Part shown: positions 396 to 20,828 of the stretch, piece after piece | How the letters are laid out: each line of letters opens with the position of its first letter | Numbering within the stretch: the stretch's first letter is position 1 | Virus record (IMG/VR): IMGVR_UViG_3300032287_004036 | Coordinates: 1 to 28,100 of that record | Strand: one strand, 5' to 3' | From: a virus | DNA length: 28,100 nt | The notes under the pieces: model-generated | What the model saw: only the letters and a program-made list of their open reading frames with translations | Databases searched by the model: none | What the model was told of the DNA's origin: nothing | Translations under genes and position numbers: made by a program

Positions 396-2609
396 TTATT
401 TAATATTCTTAAAAGGATTTCTATTAGGCTTAAAATTTAAACTTTTGGAGTTTACACCCATATTTCTAAAAGCACTCCTCATACTTAATTTACTTAATTT
501 TTGGGAGTTTACCAATTTATCTGATGTAATCTCCACTCTTTTAGCCAATCCACGGTTATTTTGCTGGATTTGGGCAAATGCTACAAGAGCACAAAATGAT
601 ACAAGTCTATCCACATTGACACCTGGTTGATATTGTTTCATCTCTTCTAGTAACATAGGATCTGGAATTCTTTCCACTCCATAATAGATTTTCTTAGTTT
701 CTCCATTCTCATCCATGTCCTTATCTATTTCCTCTGTAAGGAATTGAATACCATAGGATAACAAATGCTGCTTAAACAAAACACCCGTATTCTTCCAGCC
801 ATATGTAGCATATACATTAGCATTAGATGAAAGCTCTTTAAGGAAAGGAATCTGATCTTTAGGAACTAAATACTTTTGTTTTCTTCTTGATATCATATAT
901 TGTATGAACAAACTTACGTTATTTTCACATAATGTCCAAGCATTATACCATTCTACAATAAGTTCTAATCTTTCATGGGTTTTTTGTAAGTCATCAAACC
1001 TACCACACCAGCTTGCTACAATGGCATCTCTTTCAAAATGTGTGGATATCTTACCCTGACCATCATCTTTTATAACTTCTGTAGCTGTTTTGTACACAAA
1101 TATAGAGCACAATGAATCAGATGTTGTTGTCTTACCTTCACCTACAGGGTCAATTGAAGCATAATATGTTCCCCATGGAACATTTTTAATAGGTCTTTCA
1201 TACACACATATCACTCCAGATTTATCCTCCATAGTTTTATCTACAGGGAATCTATTGATTGGTCTTTTATTAGAAGTTTTAGCTTCCACTTTACCATCTG
1301 CATCATATCTTAAATCCAAATATTCTACAGGATAAACACCTTCCTCAATTCTTTTACTTTGATGTGATAGAAGATGTGGAGGAAATACAGATTCTTTTCT
1401 AGTTGCAAAAGCCTCTTCTATATTAGTGGGCTTTTGGGATATCCTAAGTTGATATTGCTCAGGACTTAAATCTTTTTTCCACTGTTTTCTTTCTTCATAT
1501 ATAGCTTCTAAAGCTTCCACTACAAGTGAGTTACCAAACTTATCTATATATGGAGGCATAGACCATTGTTCTGGAATAAATAAACCAGTTTCTCCAATAG
1601 TTTTATTATTATCTATAAGATTAGTTGTAATAGCCTGCATGCCATATTTATGTGGATAGAGCACCATTTCCTTTAAAGGAAGACATTGGTCCAAATCACC
1701 CACAGATCCTGCAGCAATAAAGGTTCCTGTTGTCACCATACCTGATTGCATGGCTGGTCTCATAAACTCATAAGTGTCCATCATTTTAGGGGCAATACCA
1801 GCCTCTTCATGAAAGAAATATGTTACAGGTCCACCGACACCATTTGTAGGATCTTTCTCAAAAGAGGTACCTGTTATAATACTTTTATTACCTTTGTATG
1901 TATCACGGCCCTGAATCCTCACTTTAATCCTTTGTTGCCATGAAAAAATCTTATCTGGCTCTGAAGGTCTATACCATGCCGTGTGTTCATTCAAGAAGTT
2001 ACGGTATTCATTTAACATCCTCCAAGATCCTTTCTCAGAAATGTAGTCTTTTAAACTAGCTCCTATTTTATTTACAGATCCCTCTTCAAACCAATATTGG
2101 TTTATAAGTTTACCCATATGGAAATAAGAAGATGCAATCTGACGTTTTTTAAGAATAGGAACATGCTTGTAATTTAATTCAGCAAGCCATTCATAAAGAG
2201 CCATATGGTACTGAGCATCCCTCACTTTAGCAAAGTCAAATCTTTTTTCTTCTTTATCATAAATTGGTAAAAAGTTCAACCACATGTAATAGTCTCTAGT
2301 TAGATACCATGTGTTACCATTGTTCTTATATATCACTCCATTTTTACACTTTGCTTTTTGGTCATCCCAATAATGTACAAAGTCTTTACTTTTTATAGGA
2401 GCATTACAATAATATCCTTGTTGCTGAAACTTTTTAGCTTCAGCATTGAATAAAAATGATGTTTCATCAAAATTATATCCTTCATCTGGACCCGCATCTT
2501 TAAACACACTTCTTATAAAGTCACGGAAATCATTTCTTTCCATAAACTCTGTAGTAGTCCATGTGCCATTATCATAAGTGGGGATGGTTATGTAGGCTTT
2601 ATTTAGCAT
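396..2609 (-). CDS. Terminase large subunit (TerL)
   Basis: 737 residues, the usual size for crAss-like TerL. It is the packaging motor that pumps DNA into the prohead through the portal and cuts the concatemer. N-terminal ATPase: a degenerate P-loop near 153-161 (KKRQIASSY, no GKT) and a Walker B-like FFHEEA at 265-270 giving the catalytic glutamate. The RNase H-like nuclease domain has ASIDPVGEG with D487, a second acid at E562 (CENN) and a third at D667 (NVDRLVSF). ATG at 2609 overlaps the end of the upstream small gene by 11 bases. The histidine just before the EE of Walker B is unusual; related Bacteroidota phages more often show FEEAG (from memory). Confidence 0.92.
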   Translation of the reverse strand: MLNKAYITIPTYDNGTWTTTEFMERNDFRDFIRSVFKDAGPDEGYNFDETSFLFNAEAKKFQQQGYYCNAPIKSKDFVHYWDDQKAKCKNGVIYKNNGNTWYLTRDYYMWLNFLPIYDKEEKRFDFAKVRDAQYHMALYEWLAELNYKHVPILKKRQIASSYFHMGKLINQYWFEEGSVNKIGASLKDYISEKGSWRMLNEYRNFLNEHTAWYRPSEPDKIFSWQQRIKVRIQGRDTYKGNKSIITGTSFEKDPTNGVGGPVTYFFHEEAGIAPKMMDTYEFMRPAMQSGMVTTGTFIAAGSVGDLDQCLPLKEMVLYPHKYGMQAITTNLIDNNKTIGETGLFIPEQWSMPPYIDKFGNSLVVEALEAIYEERKQWKKDLSPEQYQLRISQKPTNIEEAFATRKESVFPPHLLSHQSKRIEEGVYPVEYLDLRYDADGKVEAKTSNKRPINRFPVDKTMEDKSGVICVYERPIKNVPWGTYYASIDPVGEGKTTTSDSLCSIFVYKTATEVIKDDGQGKISTHFERDAIVASWCGRFDDLQKTHERLELIVEWYNAWTLCENNVSLFIQYMISRRKQKYLVPKDQIPFLKELSSNANVYATYGWKNTGVLFKQHLLSYGIQFLTEEIDKDMDENGETKKIYYGVERIPDPMLLEEMKQYQPGVNVDRLVSFCALVAFAQIQQNNRGLAKRVEITSDKLVNSQKLSKLSMRSAFRNMGVNSKSLNFKPNRNPFKNIK

Positions 2610-3531: not shown

Positions 3532-4042
3532 CCCAGTGTTTGTTCGGTTTTTCATAATAGAAAGTTAAGTCTTGTTCATCATCATCATAGTAGTTAGCTA
3601 CAACATCTGATTTAAATTTACTGTTTACATTTTCAAACATAGCTACGGTTACAATATCTCCTACCACCATCTCTTTTAAAAGATTGGTAAGCCATGTATA
3701 ATTACCGCCTCTAATCACTCCAGCTTCCACTAAAAGATAGTTAGAATATTTTACATCTGAAAATCTAAAATGATTTAGAATGGCTAATTTAGCTTTTTCT
3801 ATATAAGGAGCAGCATCTTCATCTGGATAGGGTACATCAATAGGTAGGATGTCTGCCATTTCTCCTGCATAACTTAACTCATGTGCAATGTGCATAGCAA
3901 CGGTGGCTGAATAGTCAGGAGACACCATTAAAACTAATGTATTGCTAGCATTTAAATGAGGAAAGCGGGCAGACAATCCCAATGTTACATGAATAATTGC
4001 TGACATTTCAGCTGTCCTATTCACCATTAAATCCATTCTCAT
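3515..4042 (-). CDS. Conserved phage protein with a phosphoribosyltransferase-like loop
   Basis: 175 residues. ATG 4042 overlaps the upstream stop as ATGA. The segment NYLLVEAGVIRGGNYTWL resembles the nucleotide-binding loop of type I phosphoribosyltransferases (hydrophobic strand, then a G-x-x-x-G-G/T turn), and a preceding strand (NTLVLMVSPDY) suits an alpha/beta fold. The paired acids of an active PRTase loop are absent (VEAG in place of VDD), so if the fold is right the protein is probably not catalytic. The family call is weak; that it is a real gene is well supported by coupling and length. Confidence 0.7.
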   Translation of the reverse strand: MRMDLMVNRTAEMSAIIHVTLGLSARFPHLNASNTLVLMVSPDYSATVAMHIAHELSYAGEMADILPIDVPYPDEDAAPYIEKAKLAILNHFRFSDVKYSNYLLVEAGVIRGGNYTWLTNLLKEMVVGDIVTVAMFENVNSKFKSDVVANYYDDDEQDLTFYYEKPNKHWDGNKQ

Positions 4043-4257
4043 ATATTAAAAAAATTATCTAGTGCTTTAGATTCATGTTCTAAACCAACAGTAGATTCAC
4101 CTTGTTTAAAAGAAACTCCCGAAATAAACACGGTGGTTGTACCGTCACTTACAGATTTGTTTAAATACTTGTTCTTCATATCCTGAGGAACACCTTCAGA
4201 AGGTATATACCATGTATTTCCTTCTTTTTTAATTGGACTCACTTTTAATACTTCCAT
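4039..4257 (-). CDS. Hypothetical small protein
   Basis: 72 residues, predicted beta-rich (NTWYIPSEGVPQDM, DGTTTVFISGVSFKQG). No recognised motif. Its stop overlaps the next start as ATGA, and it lies 10 bases after the preceding gene, so it is part of the leftward operon. Function unknown. Confidence 0.7.
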   Translation of the reverse strand: MEVLKVSPIKKEGNTWYIPSEGVPQDMKNKYLNKSVSDGTTTVFISGVSFKQGESTVGLEHESKALDNFFNI

Positions 4258-4267
4258 ATTATAGGTT

Positions 4268-4489
4268 TTAATTGTTTACATTGGTTTTTGGATTTCTTAG
4301 TAAATCCCTCTCAGCACTCTTAGCTATTTTTCTAAGTGTTGACTGCACAGCTAATTCATGGGTGTGTATCCAACTTACATTATCAAATGCTTTGTGTTGT
4401 TCAGTTAAATAATACTTATGTGCACTCTCTTCTAAATTAAGGGTGCCATTTTCATATTCATCAAGAAGCTCTGCTAATGTAGGTATCAT
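4268..4489 (-). CDS. Hypothetical small helical protein
   Basis: 73 residues from ATG 4489 (MIPTLAELLDEYENG). That ATG overlaps the upstream nuclease stop as ATGA and is preferred to the in-frame ATG at 4528, which would run 40 bases back into the nuclease gene. Mostly helical and charged. No known domain. Translational coupling to the nuclease suggests co-production. Confidence 0.7.
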   Translation of the reverse strand: MIPTLAELLDEYENGTLNLEESAHKYYLTEQHKAFDNVSWIHTHELAVQSTLRKIAKSAERDLLRNPKTNVNN

Positions 4490-5325
4490 CCTTTTGCTTT
4501 TATTTTGTCTCTGTTTTCTTTCAACCACTTTATCAATGCAATCACCTCTTGTTTTAAATAAGGCACTTCATATTGCACCACCTCTTCTACAATAGGATCC
4601 CCATGTGAATTTAGTTCTGCAATTGGATTACCAAATTTGTCTTTTCCTGATTCTTTAAATATAATGTGATGTAACACCATTTTACCAGGAGAATACAAAT
4701 GATTGTGTTTAAGAATAATGTACATATACATACTTAATTGCAATGCATAGTGTATAAAATTACAATCATCTAAATGACTTACAGGACTGCTCATCTTTTG
4801 CACCTTACCATCCCAGCTAGTGAATCCTTCTGTTTTAATTTCTTTATTAGTTTTGTAGTCGGTGATATTCACTTTACCTCTAACCACTTCCACTAAATCT
4901 GACTGACCGCAAAGTCCAGCTGATTTCAAATAAACCATATGTTCTGGATAGATGCCCTCAGTGAGTTTTTGATCTGGTGCTTGTTTAGATCCATCTGTAT
5001 TTATCAATGGAGTGAATACTGGTATAGCAACACCTTCTCTATCTAATGTTTCTAGTTGGCATATATCTTCTTCACGTTGATTGTGATACCAAGTTCCTAA
5101 TGTTGTTGCTCTATTAGCTTCATTTTTCCATGCATCTTTGATTTCATCAGGAGTCATTCCAAACCATTTAGATTTTTTAGACTTTGACACTTTAGAAGCT
5201 ACAGAGTCTGCATCAAACGGTTGTTTAAAATTGCCTATAAAGCTTGTGACACTCAACCATTTTATATCTGATTCAGGATCAAGGGAAACATATTCATGTT
5301 TCTCTGGTTTAAATACTATTGCCAT
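4486..5325 (-). CDS. PD-(D/E)XK superfamily nuclease (RecB/Cas4-like exonuclease)
   Basis: 279 residues. Catalytic signature in order: GTWYH with H81, GQSDLVE with D143, NITDYKTNK with D156 and K158, and the Q-motif YALQLSMY with Q196. This is the RecB-like subgroup of PD-(D/E)XK enzymes, metal-dependent DNA exonucleases or endonucleases. All expected active-site residues are present, so it is likely active. Comparable nucleases are found in crAss-like phages. A role in recombination, genome maturation or host DNA breakdown cannot be separated from sequence. It lies in the packaging arm, three bases after the Cys-rich zinc protein gene. Confidence 0.88.
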   Translation of the reverse strand: MAIVFKPEKHEYVSLDPESDIKWLSVTSFIGNFKQPFDADSVASKVSKSKKSKWFGMTPDEIKDAWKNEANRATTLGTWYHNQREEDICQLETLDREGVAIPVFTPLINTDGSKQAPDQKLTEGIYPEHMVYLKSAGLCGQSDLVEVVRGKVNITDYKTNKEIKTEGFTSWDGKVQKMSSPVSHLDDCNFIHYALQLSMYMYIILKHNHLYSPGKMVLHHIIFKESGKDKFGNPIAELNSHGDPIVEEVVQYEVPYLKQEVIALIKWLKENRDKIKAKG

Positions 5326-8356: not shown

Positions 8357-8971
8357 ACCTCACCACTCAACCACTTGACACTCTGATGTGAATGTATTCT
8401 CCAAACAGAATATTTTGCACTTAACTGATTGATTGTGTGGGAGTTAGAGTGTGGGTGGTAACATCTCCCACAATTCTCCACATTTTCACACAAGCCATTA
8501 AAAACCCAGAGTGCCTGCGGACTAAATGGCTATAACAACATATTGTTAAATTCTCACAATGGTAAAACTTGTATTGACATATAGGTTATCCTTACACTGA
8601 GTGTAAAGGTTCTTGGTTCCATGCTAGTGGCTTGCATGTAAAATATTAAGACAGCTATATGATAATTAAAAGTCCACTAGGGGACTATAAACCGTGTTAA
8701 GCCTAGTGCGTTCTATATATACAGCAGGAAAACAATTCGGCTCATACCTACCTTAAGTGGACTATGCCTGTTGTATATATAGAGGTCACCATTAAATGGG
8801 CTCTTTCTTTTTATGTTTCTCTTATAGATAATTCTCATAACGGGGGCTTAGGCCACCACAATTTAATGCACCAATCTCACTTCCCAAGGGTGAGCAGTTG
8901 TAAGGTCCAATAATGTACAAATGAAATAGAAAAGGCTTGTATATTACAACTGAGTGCAGAGGGATATTAAC
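8357..8971. other. Long gene-less region rich in inverted repeats
   Basis: About 610 bases with no convincing ORF on either strand. Repeats seen include AGCCATT with AATGGCT (about 8494-8542), CCTTACACT with AGTGT-AAGG (about 8590-8610), CATGC with GCATG (about 8621-8639), the pseudoknot-capable set at 8671-8784, CTCAC with GTGAG (about 8877-8895) and GTTGTAA with TTACAAC (about 8897-8951). The density suggests one or more structured RNAs rather than spacer. Confidence 0.55.
8671..8816 (+). ncRNA. Candidate structured RNA with a pseudoknot and 3' terminator
   Basis: Helix B: 17 bases at 8712-8728 pair with 8767-8783 with one G-U and no mismatch. The 38-base loop of B contains AGTGGACT (8756-8763), complementary to AGTCCACT (8671-8678), which makes an H-type pseudoknot. 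A competing hairpin CACTAGG (8675-8681) with CCTAGTG (8702-8708) uses the same bases, and AGTCC can also pair with GGACT at 8682-8686. A weak terminator-like hairpin with a T-rich tail follows (about 8781-8816). Strand is assumed from the tail. No known RNA family recognised; the 5' end is undefined. Confidence 0.5.
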
Positions 8972-9494: not shown

Positions 9495-9646
9495 CGTCAG
9501 GTGGTGGAATTGGTAGACACTGTGAGAGTATGTATATGGTGCTGTGCAGCCGATGTATTCTAAGGCACAATGAATTAGTAGATGAATTCAAAGTTGAAAG
9601 TACATACAAAATCTACGTGCAGGTTCAAATCCTGTCCTGACAACTA
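9495..9646 (+). tRNA. tRNA-like element, leucine-type arms, no canonical anticodon arm
   Basis: Acceptor: CGTCAGG (9495-9501) pairs with CCTGACA (9636-9642) in six pairs, with a C-A mismatch at the end. The D arm GTGGAATTGGTAGACAC (9504-9520) is that of tRNA-Leu. The T arm is GCAGG-TTCAAAT-CCTGT (9619-9635). The distance from D arm to T stem is 98 bases against 33 in E. coli tRNA-Leu(UAA), and I find no 5-bp stem with a 7-base loop and proper T33 and purine 37. Present instead are TGTGC (9543-9547) with GCACA (9565-9569), GTATGTA (9528-9534) with TACATAC (9601-9607) and GTAGAT (9578-9583) with ATCTAC (9611-9616). It may be interrupted, degenerate or a tRNA mimic. The tail CTA after an A discriminator matches the tmRNA's. 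Confidence 0.6.
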
Positions 9647-12151: not shown

Positions 12152-12970
12152 ATGAACAAGATACCAGATTTTATTGCCCGTCCAAGTGATATCAAGAACT
12201 ACTTTGGATCTAATGCTAATGTAGAAGCTTATATAAAAAAGATATCAAAAGGTATTGCACAAACTTCACAGAACTTTTATGAACATTTAAATGATGCACG
12301 TGAAGAAGCAAGTGTTCCACCTATGCTATTTGTATTCATGATTGATATAACAAAGAAATATAGTGAAGATTTAAAGCCACACATTTTTCCTGTTGATATA
12401 CCAGAATTTCTTTTACAAAGGACCGACTCAGCAGAAAAAGGCTTAGCTCTTTACATAGCAGGCTCATTATCAGAACTTTATATTGCTTTCAATATGGGAG
12501 CAACTAAGAGAATAAATGGAGATAATAAAGATGAAGCAACTAGTTTAAAAGAAACTAATAAGCTTATGGGAGTTATATTCCATGCTGAAGCTTATATGGT
12601 GAGAGCTAAAAGAGATGCTGATCCTGATGAAGATGAATACATAGTACCATCGGAACATCCTGATAGACAAGAATGTTATATTCACAGTATTTCTACACTA
12701 ATTGGTGAAGGGGTTATCACATATGATATAGACCGTGATAAAGATAATGCTAAAAGTATTAGCTTTGACAATCCAACTGTAGGACTATCATTTTCAGAAG
12801 ATGAAACACATAGATTTGAAGAGGCAAGTGGAAGATTTAGCAACTTATTTCCTAAAGCTTTAGAATTTATTACAGAAGTTGATGAAGATTTTTCAGTAAC
12901 TGATATAATAAATCAAGAAGGATTAAGTAACTTTGCATCAGTTCATTCTAGTGTTTACAAACCTTATTAA
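12152..12970 (+). CDS. Hypothetical acidic protein
   Basis: 272 residues (MNKIPDFIARPSDIKNYFGS...). No catalytic motif visible. Helical first half (DIKNYFGSNANVEAYIKKIS) and a highly acidic second half with many D and E. The gene starts two bases after the previous stop and ends 8 bases before the tmRNA. It is clearly coding by length and codon use. I do not recognise it. Confidence 0.82.
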   Translation: MNKIPDFIARPSDIKNYFGSNANVEAYIKKISKGIAQTSQNFYEHLNDAREEASVPPMLFVFMIDITKKYSEDLKPHIFPVDIPEFLLQRTDSAEKGLALYIAGSLSELYIAFNMGATKRINGDNKDEATSLKETNKLMGVIFHAEAYMVRAKRDADPDEDEYIVPSEHPDRQECYIHSISTLIGEGVITYDIDRDKDNAKSISFDNPTVGLSFSEDETHRFEEASGRFSNLFPKALEFITEVDEDFSVTDIINQEGLSNFASVHSSVYKPY

Positions 12971-12978
12971 AAATTACT

Positions 12979-13530
12979 GGGGCTGGTCTGGTTTTTGACA
13001 GGGTTGTAAGGGTTATAGTACAGGTGGAGCCAGGATGCATGCTCCTTAATAAAGTATTCAACTATTAAATGGCAACACAGTTGACCTATCTGCATACACT
13101 GCAGAGGCTCTTTTAGCAGAGCTTGAGACTCCAGTAGCATTAGCTGCCTAGTCTCCAGGGGTTTGATATATACACCTTGCAACAGAAATATATCACAATA
13201 AGTCATTTTTATGAAAATAGTTATATGACTCTAATCTTACAAATTATACTACTTACTGATCAGTTTAGAAGAAAAAGTACAACTGGGAATATAGTCACCC
13301 GTCCCTGGTACCAGTTAGTAAACGTTAAGGTGCAGAACCCGATACTATAAAACTAACTTCCGGGTAACAGATCAAAAACTACGGTGCAGAGTGTGTATTA
13401 ATATTGTTAACACTTTAAACAAGTTGAGATGGGTTTAAAAAACACTTGATGCACACTCAGTACTAAACCTGTGAGAAGCTGCTATAAACTGCTTCTGCTT
13501 TGGACCCGGGTTCGACTCCCGGCAGCTCCA
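12979..13530 (+). ncRNA. ssrA: tmRNA (transfer-messenger RNA)
   Basis: The 5' acceptor strand GGGGCTG (12979-12985) pairs with CAGCTCC (13523-13529) in all 7 positions, including the G3-U70 wobble that marks alanine charging. The D-loop-like GTCTGGTTTTTGACAGGG follows directly, as in tmRNAs, and the T arm is CCGGG-TTCGACT-CCCGG. A = 13530 is the discriminator; the CCA is not encoded (CTA follows). An internal reading frame from GGC 13071 to TAG 13149-13151 ends in ALAA, and its stop sits in the H5-like helix GAGACT/AGTCTC. It rescues stalled ribosomes with SmpB, tagging the product for proteolysis. At 552 bases it is longer than the usual 350-400. Confidence 0.95.
13071..13151 (+). other. tmRNA degradation-tag reading frame
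   Basis: Resume codon GGC at 13071, then 26 codons: the tag starts GNTVDLSAYT, passes AEALLAELET and ends PVALAA before TAG. Bacteroidota host tags are usually shorter (GETNYALAA or GENNYALAA type). The G start and the ALAA end, which is the ClpXP signal, are conserved. The resume position is inferred from the AAATGGC context. Confidence 0.85.
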
Positions 13531-13564
13531 CTAATTTTATTTTTAACCATAAAAACCAATTGCC

Positions 13565-13867
13565 ATGAGTGCAGTAAAATTTGAAAAAAAAGAAAGAATA
13601 TCAGAATCTTTAGGTATTGATGATAAAAGATTTGAAGAATTAAGAGAAGGAATATCTTCTGTATTAGCAAAGTCATTAATGGCTCATACAACAGACATTA
13701 TGCAAGGTAAAATCAGTGTAAATGCTGAACTTGATATTGAAATGATCCTTCAAGGAATATCTGATTTAGCTGAAAATGCTAATGAAGCACTATATGTAGG
13801 CTATATGGCCGGTCTTGGTGTTGAGCATATTAAAGCTCAAATGGGTAATATATTAGGAGAAGATTAA
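13565..13867 (+). CDS. Hypothetical protein
   Basis: 100 residues (MSAVKFEKKERISESLGIDD...). Helical, with acidic and Ala-rich segments (SDLAENANEALYVGYMAGLG). The ATG is preceded by AAAAACCAATTGCC, a leader like that of 10055. It follows the tmRNA by 34 bases and precedes a structured RNA candidate. No family recognised. Confidence 0.75.
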   Translation: MSAVKFEKKERISESLGIDDKRFEELREGISSVLAKSLMAHTTDIMQGKISVNAELDIEMILQGISDLAENANEALYVGYMAGLGVEHIKAQMGNILGED

Positions 13868-16418: not shown

Positions 16419-16810
16419 TGCAGCCAAAACTTAAAATATGTGCTGAATGCGGTGATCTGTCTCTCATCTACAAAACTGTAGGTAGGGACAGATATTGCAA
16501 ACCATGTGCTATGTTTTTATTTCCACCAAAACCGGTGAATAAAGTAAGTAAGAAAAAGAAACAAGAAGATAAGGAGTACTCCAGATTGAGAAACATCTTT
16601 CTGGAGTCTAATCCTTATTGTGAAGCTAAGCTTCCTGGATGTGCTGGTCATGCAAGTGAGGTGCACCATAAAGCTGGCCGTGGCTTATCTTATTTAGAAA
16701 TATCAACATGGATTGGTTTATGCAGATCATGCCATAGTTGGATTGAACTTCACCCTATTGAAGCTAAAGAATTAGGATTTTCTGTATCAAGATTAAATAA
16801 TGAAGAATGA
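16418..16810 (+). CDS. HNH-type protein related to NinG
   Basis: 130 residues. N-terminal zinc ribbon with CAEC (C8, C11) and CKPC (C27, C30). A basic linker KKKKQEDKEYSRLRNIFL is followed by an HNH-like core: C68 and C75, EVHHKAGRG with H83 and H84, and LCRSCH with C102, C105 and H106. The order (zinc ribbon plus HNH) resembles phage NinG recombination proteins. It probably nicks or processes branched DNA. Start is coupled to the previous gene as TAATG and the stop overlaps the next start as ATGA. Confidence 0.82.
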   Translation: MQPKLKICAECGDLSLIYKTVGRDRYCKPCAMFLFPPKPVNKVSKKKKQEDKEYSRLRNIFLESNPYCEAKLPGCAGHASEVHHKAGRGLSYLEISTWIGLCRSCHSWIELHPIEAKELGFSVSRLNNEE

Positions 16811-17685
16811 CACCAGTGATAGAAAAAGTTACTAGAAAGTCTATGATTATTAGACCTTCTGGTAGAAGTACAGATTATATATCTCCAAGTTTTGGACACG
16901 GGTGCCTTTTTGATTGCAAATATTGCTATATGAAAAGACACAAACCTGAAGGATTAACAATTGCTACAAATCATGGGCAAATACTATCAGAAATAAATGC
17001 TCATGCATGGTTTGCTGATGTAGAAAAGCCAAATCAAACACATGAAAGCTTTATAACTTATGATATATCATGTAATGAAGACTTTGCTTTACATGCAAAA
17101 TACCATAACTGGAAAGAAATATTTGATTTCTTTAAAAACCATGACAAAGCTATGGGATCATTTGCTACTAAATATGTTAATACTGATCTTCTTGACTACA
17201 ATCCTAATGGTAAAGTAAGAATAAGATTTAGTCTTATGCCTACAGAATATTCTTGTTATTTAGAACCTGAAACTTCCTCTATAAGTCATAGAGTATCAAG
17301 TATTAACCAGTTTATAAATGCCGGTTATGATGTACATGTAAACTTTTCTCCTGTGATAGTTCAAGACGGCTGGTTAGAACAGTATGAGTTATTATTTAGA
17401 ATGTTAAATATAGGAGTTGATCCTAAACATAAAGACAGGGTTAAAGCAGAGGTCATATTTCTTACACATAATAAAGATAAGCATAAAAGTAATTTAGAAA
17501 AAGGTGTAGTTAGTGTAGAAAGTGAAAACCTATTGTGGAAACCTGAAATACAGGAATCTAAAATTTCACAATTTGGTGGACACAATATAAGATATAAGCA
17601 TGATTTAAAGGCTGGCTATATTCAAGAATGGACAGAACTACATGATAAAATAATTCCTTGGAACACTATAAGATATATTTTCTAA
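16807..17685 (+). CDS. Radical SAM protein, spore photoproduct lyase-like
   Basis: 292 residues. The radical SAM cluster motif CxxxCxxC is C33-LFD-C37-KY-C40, preceded by SPSFGHG, a layout like SplB-type spore photoproduct lyases and their phage relatives. That family uses a 4Fe-4S cluster and SAM; SplB repairs the thymine dimer spore photoproduct, and a repair or modification role in phage DNA is inferred. The full-length protein is slightly shorter than bacterial SplB (about 340). Its ATG overlaps the HNH stop as ATGA, so the two are coupled. The gene is AT-rich like its neighbours, with no clear sign of recent transfer. Confidence 0.82.
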   Translation: MTPVIEKVTRKSMIIRPSGRSTDYISPSFGHGCLFDCKYCYMKRHKPEGLTIATNHGQILSEINAHAWFADVEKPNQTHESFITYDISCNEDFALHAKYHNWKEIFDFFKNHDKAMGSFATKYVNTDLLDYNPNGKVRIRFSLMPTEYSCYLEPETSSISHRVSSINQFINAGYDVHVNFSPVIVQDGWLEQYELLFRMLNIGVDPKHKDRVKAEVIFLTHNKDKHKSNLEKGVVSVESENLLWKPEIQESKISQFGGHNIRYKHDLKAGYIQEWTELHDKIIPWNTIRYIF

Positions 17686-19721: not shown

Positions 19722-20828
19722 ATGACTAGAGACCAGATACAAAATGAAGCCTTAGCATTAGCATTACAGAATAAAAAATGTGGTATAGCATTAAGTATGG
19801 GGGTCGGAAAGACATATCTCGGACTACAATATATCAAACATTATTATGATGAATGCCCTATAAAAGTGCTAGTTGTAGCTCCAAAAATTACTATTTTAGA
19901 TAACTGGAAAGAAGAAGCAATCAAGTTTAACCTTGAAGAGATGTTACCATCTATAACTTTTACCACTTATCTATCATTAAACAAACAATCTTATGACTAT
20001 GATCTAATCATTCTTGATGAGTGTCATAGTTTACTATTTTCACATGATGAATACTTAGCCAACTGTAAATCTAGTAGAATATTAGGTTTAACCGGCACAC
20101 CGCCTAGATATCAGGTGAGTGAAAAAGGCAAGATGGTATATAAATACTGTCCTATTAAGTATAAATACATCACAGATGATGCCATTGATGATAACATCCT
20201 CAATGACTACAGAATTATAGTGCATAAGCTTAAGCTTAATACAGAGAAAACCATCCCTGTAAAAACTACTAACGGAACTTTTAAAGCTTCAGAAGTACAA
20301 AACTATAATTATTGGTCTACAAGAGTACAGGATGCACAAACAGCTGCGGCTAAACAAATTGCTTCTGTAATGAGAATGAAAACCATGATGACTTACAAAT
20401 CCAAAGAGGATTATGCTGCTGAGTTATTTGCAAAAGAAACTGATAAATGTATTATTTTCTGCAATACACAAGACCAAGCAGATGCTATGTGTGAGTATTC
20501 ATACCATAGTAAAAATCCAGATTCTGAAGATAACCTTCAGATGTTTAAATCTGGAACTATAAATAAACTTAGTTGTGTATTACAATTAAGTGAAGGTGTA
20601 AACATACCAAATTTAAAATCTGGAATTATTCTACATGCTTATGGCAATGAAAGAAAAGCCCAGCAAAGAATTGGTAGGATGTTAAGACTAAATCCTGATG
20701 AAACTGCTACAATACATATATTGTGCTATCAGGGCACTGTAGATGAGAAATGGGTTAAAGATGCACTCAATGACTTTGATGAATCTAAGATTACATATAT
20801 CACTGCAGGATCACAACTAATATTTTAA
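19722..20828 (+). CDS. SF2 DNA helicase (DEAD/SNF2-like)
   Basis: 368 residues. Motif I SMGVGKT at 25-31, motif II DECH at 99-102, motif III TGTPP at 124-128, and motif VI QQRIGRMLR at 314-322. The Q-motif-like start (MTRDQIQNEALALALQNKKC) and the DECH box fit superfamily 2. It is short for an SNF2 protein (often 450 or more), so it is a minimal two-RecA-domain form. Small SNF2-like helicases are typical of crAss-like phages. Likely role: replication, recombination or transcription-linked remodelling. The gene is bounded by small unknown genes. Confidence 0.88.
   Translation: MTRDQIQNEALALALQNKKCGIALSMGVGKTYLGLQYIKHYYDECPIKVLVVAPKITILDNWKEEAIKFNLEEMLPSITFTTYLSLNKQSYDYDLIILDECHSLLFSHDEYLANCKSSRILGLTGTPPRYQVSEKGKMVYKYCPIKYKYITDDAIDDNILNDYRIIVHKLKLNTEKTIPVKTTNGTFKASEVQNYNYWSTRVQDAQTAAAKQIASVMRMKTMMTYKSKEDYAAELFAKETDKCIIFCNTQDQADAMCEYSYHSKNPDSEDNLQMFKSGTINKLSCVLQLSEGVNIPNLKSGIILHAYGNERKAQQRIGRMLRLNPDETATIHILCYQGTVDEKWVKDALNDFDESKITYITAGSQLIF

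Follow-up and report, generated by a model that had tools for sequence, protein, structure and literature searches.

The window analyzed here is the entire IMG/VR virus record IMGVR_UViG_3300032287_004036, a stretch of 28,100 bp. When it was compared with the RNA families of Rfam 15 using cmscan, a single RNA exceeded its gathering threshold, a tmRNA (RF00023) matched over model positions 1–374 of 374 with 78.9 bits against a cut-off of 47 (E 2.7e-29; Table 1). The covariance model thus bears out the first-pass annotation, made from the letters alone, in its claim of a tmRNA at positions 12979–13530; the proposed start stands, while the end does not, as the Rfam match continues to 13533 to give an RNA of 555 nt. 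The gene lies between two reading frames of no recognized family, and its start 8 nt past the upstream stop codon suggests that the two are co-transcribed and the RNA then released by processing.

Table 1. Features of the tmRNA locus (positions in the window; RNA motifs written 5' to 3')
Feature	Position	Strand	Remarks
Upstream ORF of 272 aa without a family match	12152–12970	+	Ends 8 nt before the tmRNA
One-piece tmRNA (ssrA) gene	12979–13533	+	Full-length RF00023 match, 555 nt including the ACUA end
5' acceptor strand GGGGCUG, with G3 of G3:U70	12979–12985	+	7/7 pairs with 13523–13529
Helix 2, 5' strand ACAGGU	13020–13025	+	6/6 pairs with 13467–13472
Pseudoknot PK1, GGAGC/GCUCC and GGAUGC/GUAUUC, upstream of the resume codon	13026–13059	+	Score equaled in 5/300 shuffles
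Tag frame, resume codon GGC, 26 codons, GNTVDLSAYTAEALLAELETPVALAA	13071–13148	+	Frame reading and ARAGORN (other settings)
Helix 5, GAGACU (13125–13130) with AGUCUC (13150–13155)	13125–13155	+	6 bp, predicted
Tag stop codon TAG, part within helix 5	13149–13151	+	
Pseudoknot PK2, CAGGG/CCUUG and UGAUAUAU/AUAUAUCA, after the tag	13156–13195	+	Score equaled in 2/300 shuffles
Additional 13-bp hairpin GAGUGUGUAUUAA/UUGAUGCACACUC, within the extended 3' portion	13389–13458	+	Local helix as strong in 0/300 shuffles
Helix 2, 3' strand ACCUGU	13467–13472	+	Pairs with 13020–13025
T arm CCGGG-UUCGACU-CCCGG	13506–13522	+	5/5 pairs
3' acceptor strand CAGCUCC, then A and CUA (CCA not encoded)	13523–13529	+	
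Downstream ORF of 100 aa without a family match	13565–13867	+	

The architecture of the RNA can be narrowed to the one-piece form. ARAGORN at default settings missed the gene in the whole window; at other settings, applied to a 700-nt excerpt, it returned exactly the 26-residue tag but labeled the gene permuted, because the excerpt had been wrapped as a circle. A two-piece (permuted) gene is excluded by the collinear RF00023 match (1–374), the permuted model matching only in fragments below cut-off, and an intron-bearing form by the uninterrupted T loop and by the lack of any intron family match within 12950–13560. The RNA family search of the same interval likewise gave no group I intron as a source of the extra length, most of which falls within 13196–13460. 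Mycobacteriophage DS6A encodes a tmRNA relative that consists of the tRNA-like domain only (PMC4131195); this form is also excluded, as the window RNA has the tag frame that DS6A lacks.

The molecule carries an alanine-type acceptor stem with G3:U70 and a T arm with a UUCRA loop, and both stems are fully paired (Table 1). Acceptor stems with 7/7 pairs and G3:U70 were also found in 10 of the 10 other phage tmRNAs checked, among which the remaining acceptor pairs differ, that is, covary. Helix 2, which joins the two tRNA-like halves, covaries with the host versions: CAUG/CAUG or CGUG/CACG stands at this position in many of the hosts sampled, so that the phage-type helix 2 (CAGG/CCUG), like the phage-type PK1 (GGAG/CUCC), represents paired changes relative to them. 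Structure significance was assessed with 300 dinucleotide shuffles. The PK3/PK4 region offers candidate helices only; it also holds the 13-bp hairpin. A 9-bp helix pairing 13003–13011 with 13175–13183 was not retained, many helices being equally strong.

The internal frame that had been read from GGC at 13071 to TAG at 13149 is the same as that returned by ARAGORN. It closes with ALAA, a small hydrophobic end, directly before the stop, and it opens as many tags of the sampled Bacteroidota do, with GGC or another GGx codon following UAAAU or UAAC(U). A random frame is very unlikely to run for 26 codons from the resume site of a tmRNA and to end in ALAA. The Rfam consensus resume codon, GCA, falls one base further on, and reading from GCA at 13072 would give a tag ending after 14 codons (ATQLTYLHTLQRLF); as that frame has no degron-like end, whereas the GGC frame ends ALAA-TAG and begins in the context used by host tags, such an alternative is hardly credible. 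In tblastn of phage records, neither the GGC-frame tag nor the L007-type tag described below had a match, and the 11 matches to the tag pattern in bacterial genomes were all treated as chance, the one inspected closely (L076) not being the tmRNA of its genome.

Bacteroidota host tmRNAs provide a yardstick for these dimensions. The main tmRNA in 118 Bacteroidota genomes is about 349–405 nt long, and 47 of the 48 tags read by ARAGORN, such as GENNYALAA, have 9–10 residues and an AA end, the one exception (L131) looking like a mis-call. The window tag is thus about three times longer than those of the sampled Bacteroidota, and the RNA also differs from theirs in its helix 2 type and in the long extra region noted above. 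The first-pass annotation had held that tag and RNA length set this RNA apart, which is correct relative to the sampled hosts (26 versus 9–10 residues; 555 versus about 349–405 nt) but not in the sense of a sole case, as several phage groups have long tags. Some mycoplasmas, too, are known to have long tags, and length by itself is therefore not without precedent. In a 2025 database of 97,179 tmRNAs the commonest tag length is 10 residues (PMC11915505). One Bacteroidota genome contains a second tmRNA-like copy (L119, G154:C1:772761-773172) with a short GENNYALAA frame and degenerate ends. A DNA search of 395 Bacteroidota genomes for the L007-type tmRNA, run without a positive control, gave no match.

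The other phage tmRNAs with long tags come mostly from two sets. The first was found by end motifs, the tag itself not being used. It includes the L007 family (12 contigs; tmRNA of about 467 nt), with the 23-residue tag DN(K/M)STWTFEDAMSFVGADLAVAA; some of these contigs are T4-like large phages, with TerL proteins resembling those of Bacteroidota phages among others. To the same set belong L147 (23 residues, DEMSTWTFEDAMSFVSQDELAIA), L146 (24 residues, AKTAKYKGHVSARVSLVEMAESVA), L151 (30 residues, AKHNSLTTLAKNFVFEVNAPETVEAEFAMA), and L023–L027, with a 14-residue tag; the helix-5 region of L024 resembles that of the L007 family. A match to the L151 tag in L024 is antisense to an ORF and was treated as chance. 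The second set, phages selected for a similar TerL or taken from the cr/crAss set, was searched with RF00023. Flavobacterium phage FpV4 carries a tmRNA at 81947–82361 on the minus strand (58.2 bits) with a 35-residue tag, GNTNNSVVSLEDNAQVEANMNMAFSLIREDVAVAA; this tmRNA is found at 100% identity in 29 of 29 FpV4-type Flavobacterium phage records and is annotated in none, and in FpV4 it lies in a 2.3-kb annotation gap (NC_041872.1, 81439–83767). The 636-kb phage LR756504.1 has a 24-residue tag, DNVNSFEQSILNELFAPVEMAVAA, and LR756500.1 a short one, GNNAEMRMAA. Similarity in DNA to FpV4 led to Cellulophaga phage phi14:2, a cultured member of the Crassvirales, in which the RNA at 4031–4502 has a 38-residue tag, GNDTDNTQLKANMTVVHNILNGSDALIGSSVQKLAMVA, and scores 46.0 bits, just below the cut-off of 47 (E 5e-16); its record has the gene without a tmRNA annotation. 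The RF00023 search gave no tmRNA in MaF61, PTm1, or PAU and no match at a meaningful score in nine additional phages that are crAss-like or related to these. The crAss-like phage L010 (cr125_1) has an annotated tmRNA of the permuted type, with a Hatchet ribozyme and a RAGATH-9 RNA close by.

For FpV4, phi14:2, LR756504, and the L007 family, the tag was taken manually from the frame with a small hydrophobic tail, and ARAGORN misses or mis-calls all of them. More broadly, the program reported an incorrect tag, or failed to report any, for several phage tmRNAs (L004–L022, L182, which is the FpV4 locus, and L184) and for host L131, so automated annotation probably under-counts tmRNAs with long tags.

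Phylogenetic comparison bears on where the window RNA came from. In a tree built from the tRNA-like parts together with PK1, the window, L007, and L024 families stand apart from 30 Bacteroidota host tmRNAs (UFBoot 100), and the separation persists on the 5' part alone (UFBoot 95), the fairer comparison because L024 was found with a motif requiring the phage-type helix. Both trees include an E. coli row, which carries no weight and is absent from the larger phage tree. This grouping, together with the integrity of every key element and a tag and RNA length unlike those of any host seen, argues against a decaying host ssrA or one captured accidentally, for example by imprecise excision. In favor of such an origin, elements often integrate at the ssrA gene of their host (PMC9004378), and the 78.9 bits of the window RNA are lower than the scores of most hosts; no integrase was seen among the window proteins searched, however, and the origin appears very unlikely.

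The larger phage tree joins the window with L007, L024, and L147 (88), then with L146 and L151 (78), while FpV4 and phi14:2 form a clade of their own (97) and LR756504 falls elsewhere, deep nodes being weak. These scattered positions suggest that long tags arose more than once. The tags themselves show limited common ground. In 28 pairwise comparisons, the L007 and L147 tags share STWTFEDAMSFV (p about 0.0005), a core near-identical in DNA as well, so the match does not prove selection at the protein level; DN.Q..ANM is common to the tags of FpV4 and phi14:2 (p about 0.0025, or about 0.07 corrected for the 28 pairs); and the best match of the window tag, to that of LR756504 (p 0.0065), is not significant after correction.

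Neutral drift is a serious rival to a functional extension. On this account, which concerns the extension and not the identity of the RNA, the phage tmRNA needs only a frame with a degron end, and the length of the remainder drifts. Tag interiors are indeed mostly unrelated between phage groups, the tags of these phages are anywhere from 10 to 38 residues long, and L024 has 14 residues despite its L007-like helix-5 region; yet hosts keep to 9–10 residues, long tags occur at several positions in the tree, and the L007/L147 core, possibly also that of FpV4 and phi14:2, has been kept. Neutral extension is given slightly less than an even chance of being the explanation.

The virus itself probably infects Bacteroidota, judging from TerL and helicase likeness at only 24–31% identity. 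The window TerL (396–2609, minus strand) is 24–25% identical to those of Flavobacterium, other Bacteroidota, or crAss-like phages, and the helicase (19722–20828) is about 31% identical to that of the same Flavobacterium phages. Closer helicases occur in 48 uncultured contigs, mostly at 54–62% identity, and reach 71% over short pieces in three incomplete contigs. An RF00023 search of these 48 helicase relatives, more distant than the near-identical contigs and several of them longer than 100 kb, found no tmRNA, nor did a relaxed end-motif scan of loci from them; the tmRNA is therefore an optional gene, not essential to this helicase-related group. The window tmRNA stands as a single sequence because the two near-identical contigs both end before the locus, and searches with the ATPase and the upstream ORF returned only contigs stopping short of it.

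Several other features of the window may be recorded. A spore photoproduct lyase-like protein is encoded at 16807–17685 on the plus strand (PF20903, E 2.5e-24), with 64–66% identity in phage relatives. A Pistol ribozyme-like sequence at 8671–8728 (plus strand; RF02679, 25.4 bits against a cut-off of 34.5, E 0.064 in 2.5 kb) sits in an extended region where convincing ORFs are scarce, and at about 9496–9643 (plus strand) tRNA-Leu-like ends (GTCAGGTGGTGGAATTGGTAGACAC ... GCAGGTTCAAATCCTGTCCTGAC) enclose additional sequence. No tRNA was called in the window, whereas calls for tRNA-Ala and tRNA-Pro were obtained in the near-identical L002 and L003.

A search for SmpB genes in the window, FpV4, phi14:2, and another three phage records found none, and the absence of such a gene from the 28.1-kb fragment suggests that the virus probably uses host SmpB. 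The same absence would suit an RNA that does not tag but acts as a decoy or inhibitor, titrating SmpB or host factors, as proposed for DS6A (PMC4131195, PMC11915505). Since the window RNA, unlike that of DS6A, has an intact resume site, tag frame, stop, and degron end, this role is improbable here.

In trans-translation, an RNA with such parts is charged by AlaRS and bound by SmpB, and its tag is appended to stalled peptides; ends of the ALAA type are read by ClpXP. The window RNA is a phage-encoded one-piece tmRNA of this kind that probably works and would draw on host AlaRS, SmpB, and ClpXP-type proteases. Once it is expressed, host AlaRS would load it with alanine by way of G3:U70 and host SmpB would bind it; the charged RNA would enter stalled ribosomes, alanine and the 26-residue tag would be added to the stalled product, and the ALAA end would direct that product to host ClpXP-type proteases. 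The first-pass annotation had supposed that a phage copy could redirect ribosome rescue toward phage mRNAs or give tagged products a different fate, which is conjectural; by analogy, this end instead indicates ordinary tagging for ClpXP-type degradation as the likely function. Like bacterial ssrA, the window gene combines the common gene order, G3:U70 acceptor, T arm, PK1, and resume context with a stop in helix 5, PK2, and an ALAA end.

As a phage tmRNA, it is of a kind already known, the unusual features being the lengths of tag and RNA. In one survey 402 of 18,146 phage genomes, about 2.3%, had tmRNAs (PMC9004378). They have been reported in mycobacteriophages and phage G, besides the tag-less form of DS6A (PMC4131195), and one is reported in Cellulophaga phage Calle (PMC8776804). 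The window has phage-encoded ssrA in common with mycobacteriophages, Bacillus phage G, Streptomyces phages, and Melnitz, but the Streptomyces phage tags seen in this analysis have only 11–13 residues and the tmRNA of Melnitz is two-piece and of another lineage (PMC9004378). FpV4 and phi14:2 have one-piece tmRNAs, long tags, and TerL proteins distantly related to that of the window, but their tags differ in length and interior and their RNAs form a separate clade. A literature search of incomplete coverage turned up no earlier account of tmRNAs with long tags in these phages.

Phage tmRNAs may, as a guess, have been freed from the short tag of their hosts, with at least some extensions, such as the L007/L147 core and perhaps that of FpV4 and phi14:2, kept for the effect of the peptide, conceivably better degradation or recognition by another adaptor. 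The stronger proposal, that Bacteroidota phages have repeatedly built extended-tag tmRNAs whose extra peptide serves the phage in a role of its own, is doubtful; if true, such roles could include use of another adaptor or protease, a mark for recycling, or the sparing of tagged phage proteins. Default ARAGORN misses or misreads several such genes. As the cultured phi14:2 and FpV4-type phages carry unannotated long-tag tmRNAs, the question is directly testable, and the difference in peptide makes phage-tagged and host-tagged products distinguishable by mass spectrometry. Long tags in unrelated phages thereby offer a handle on why phages carry tmRNA at all.
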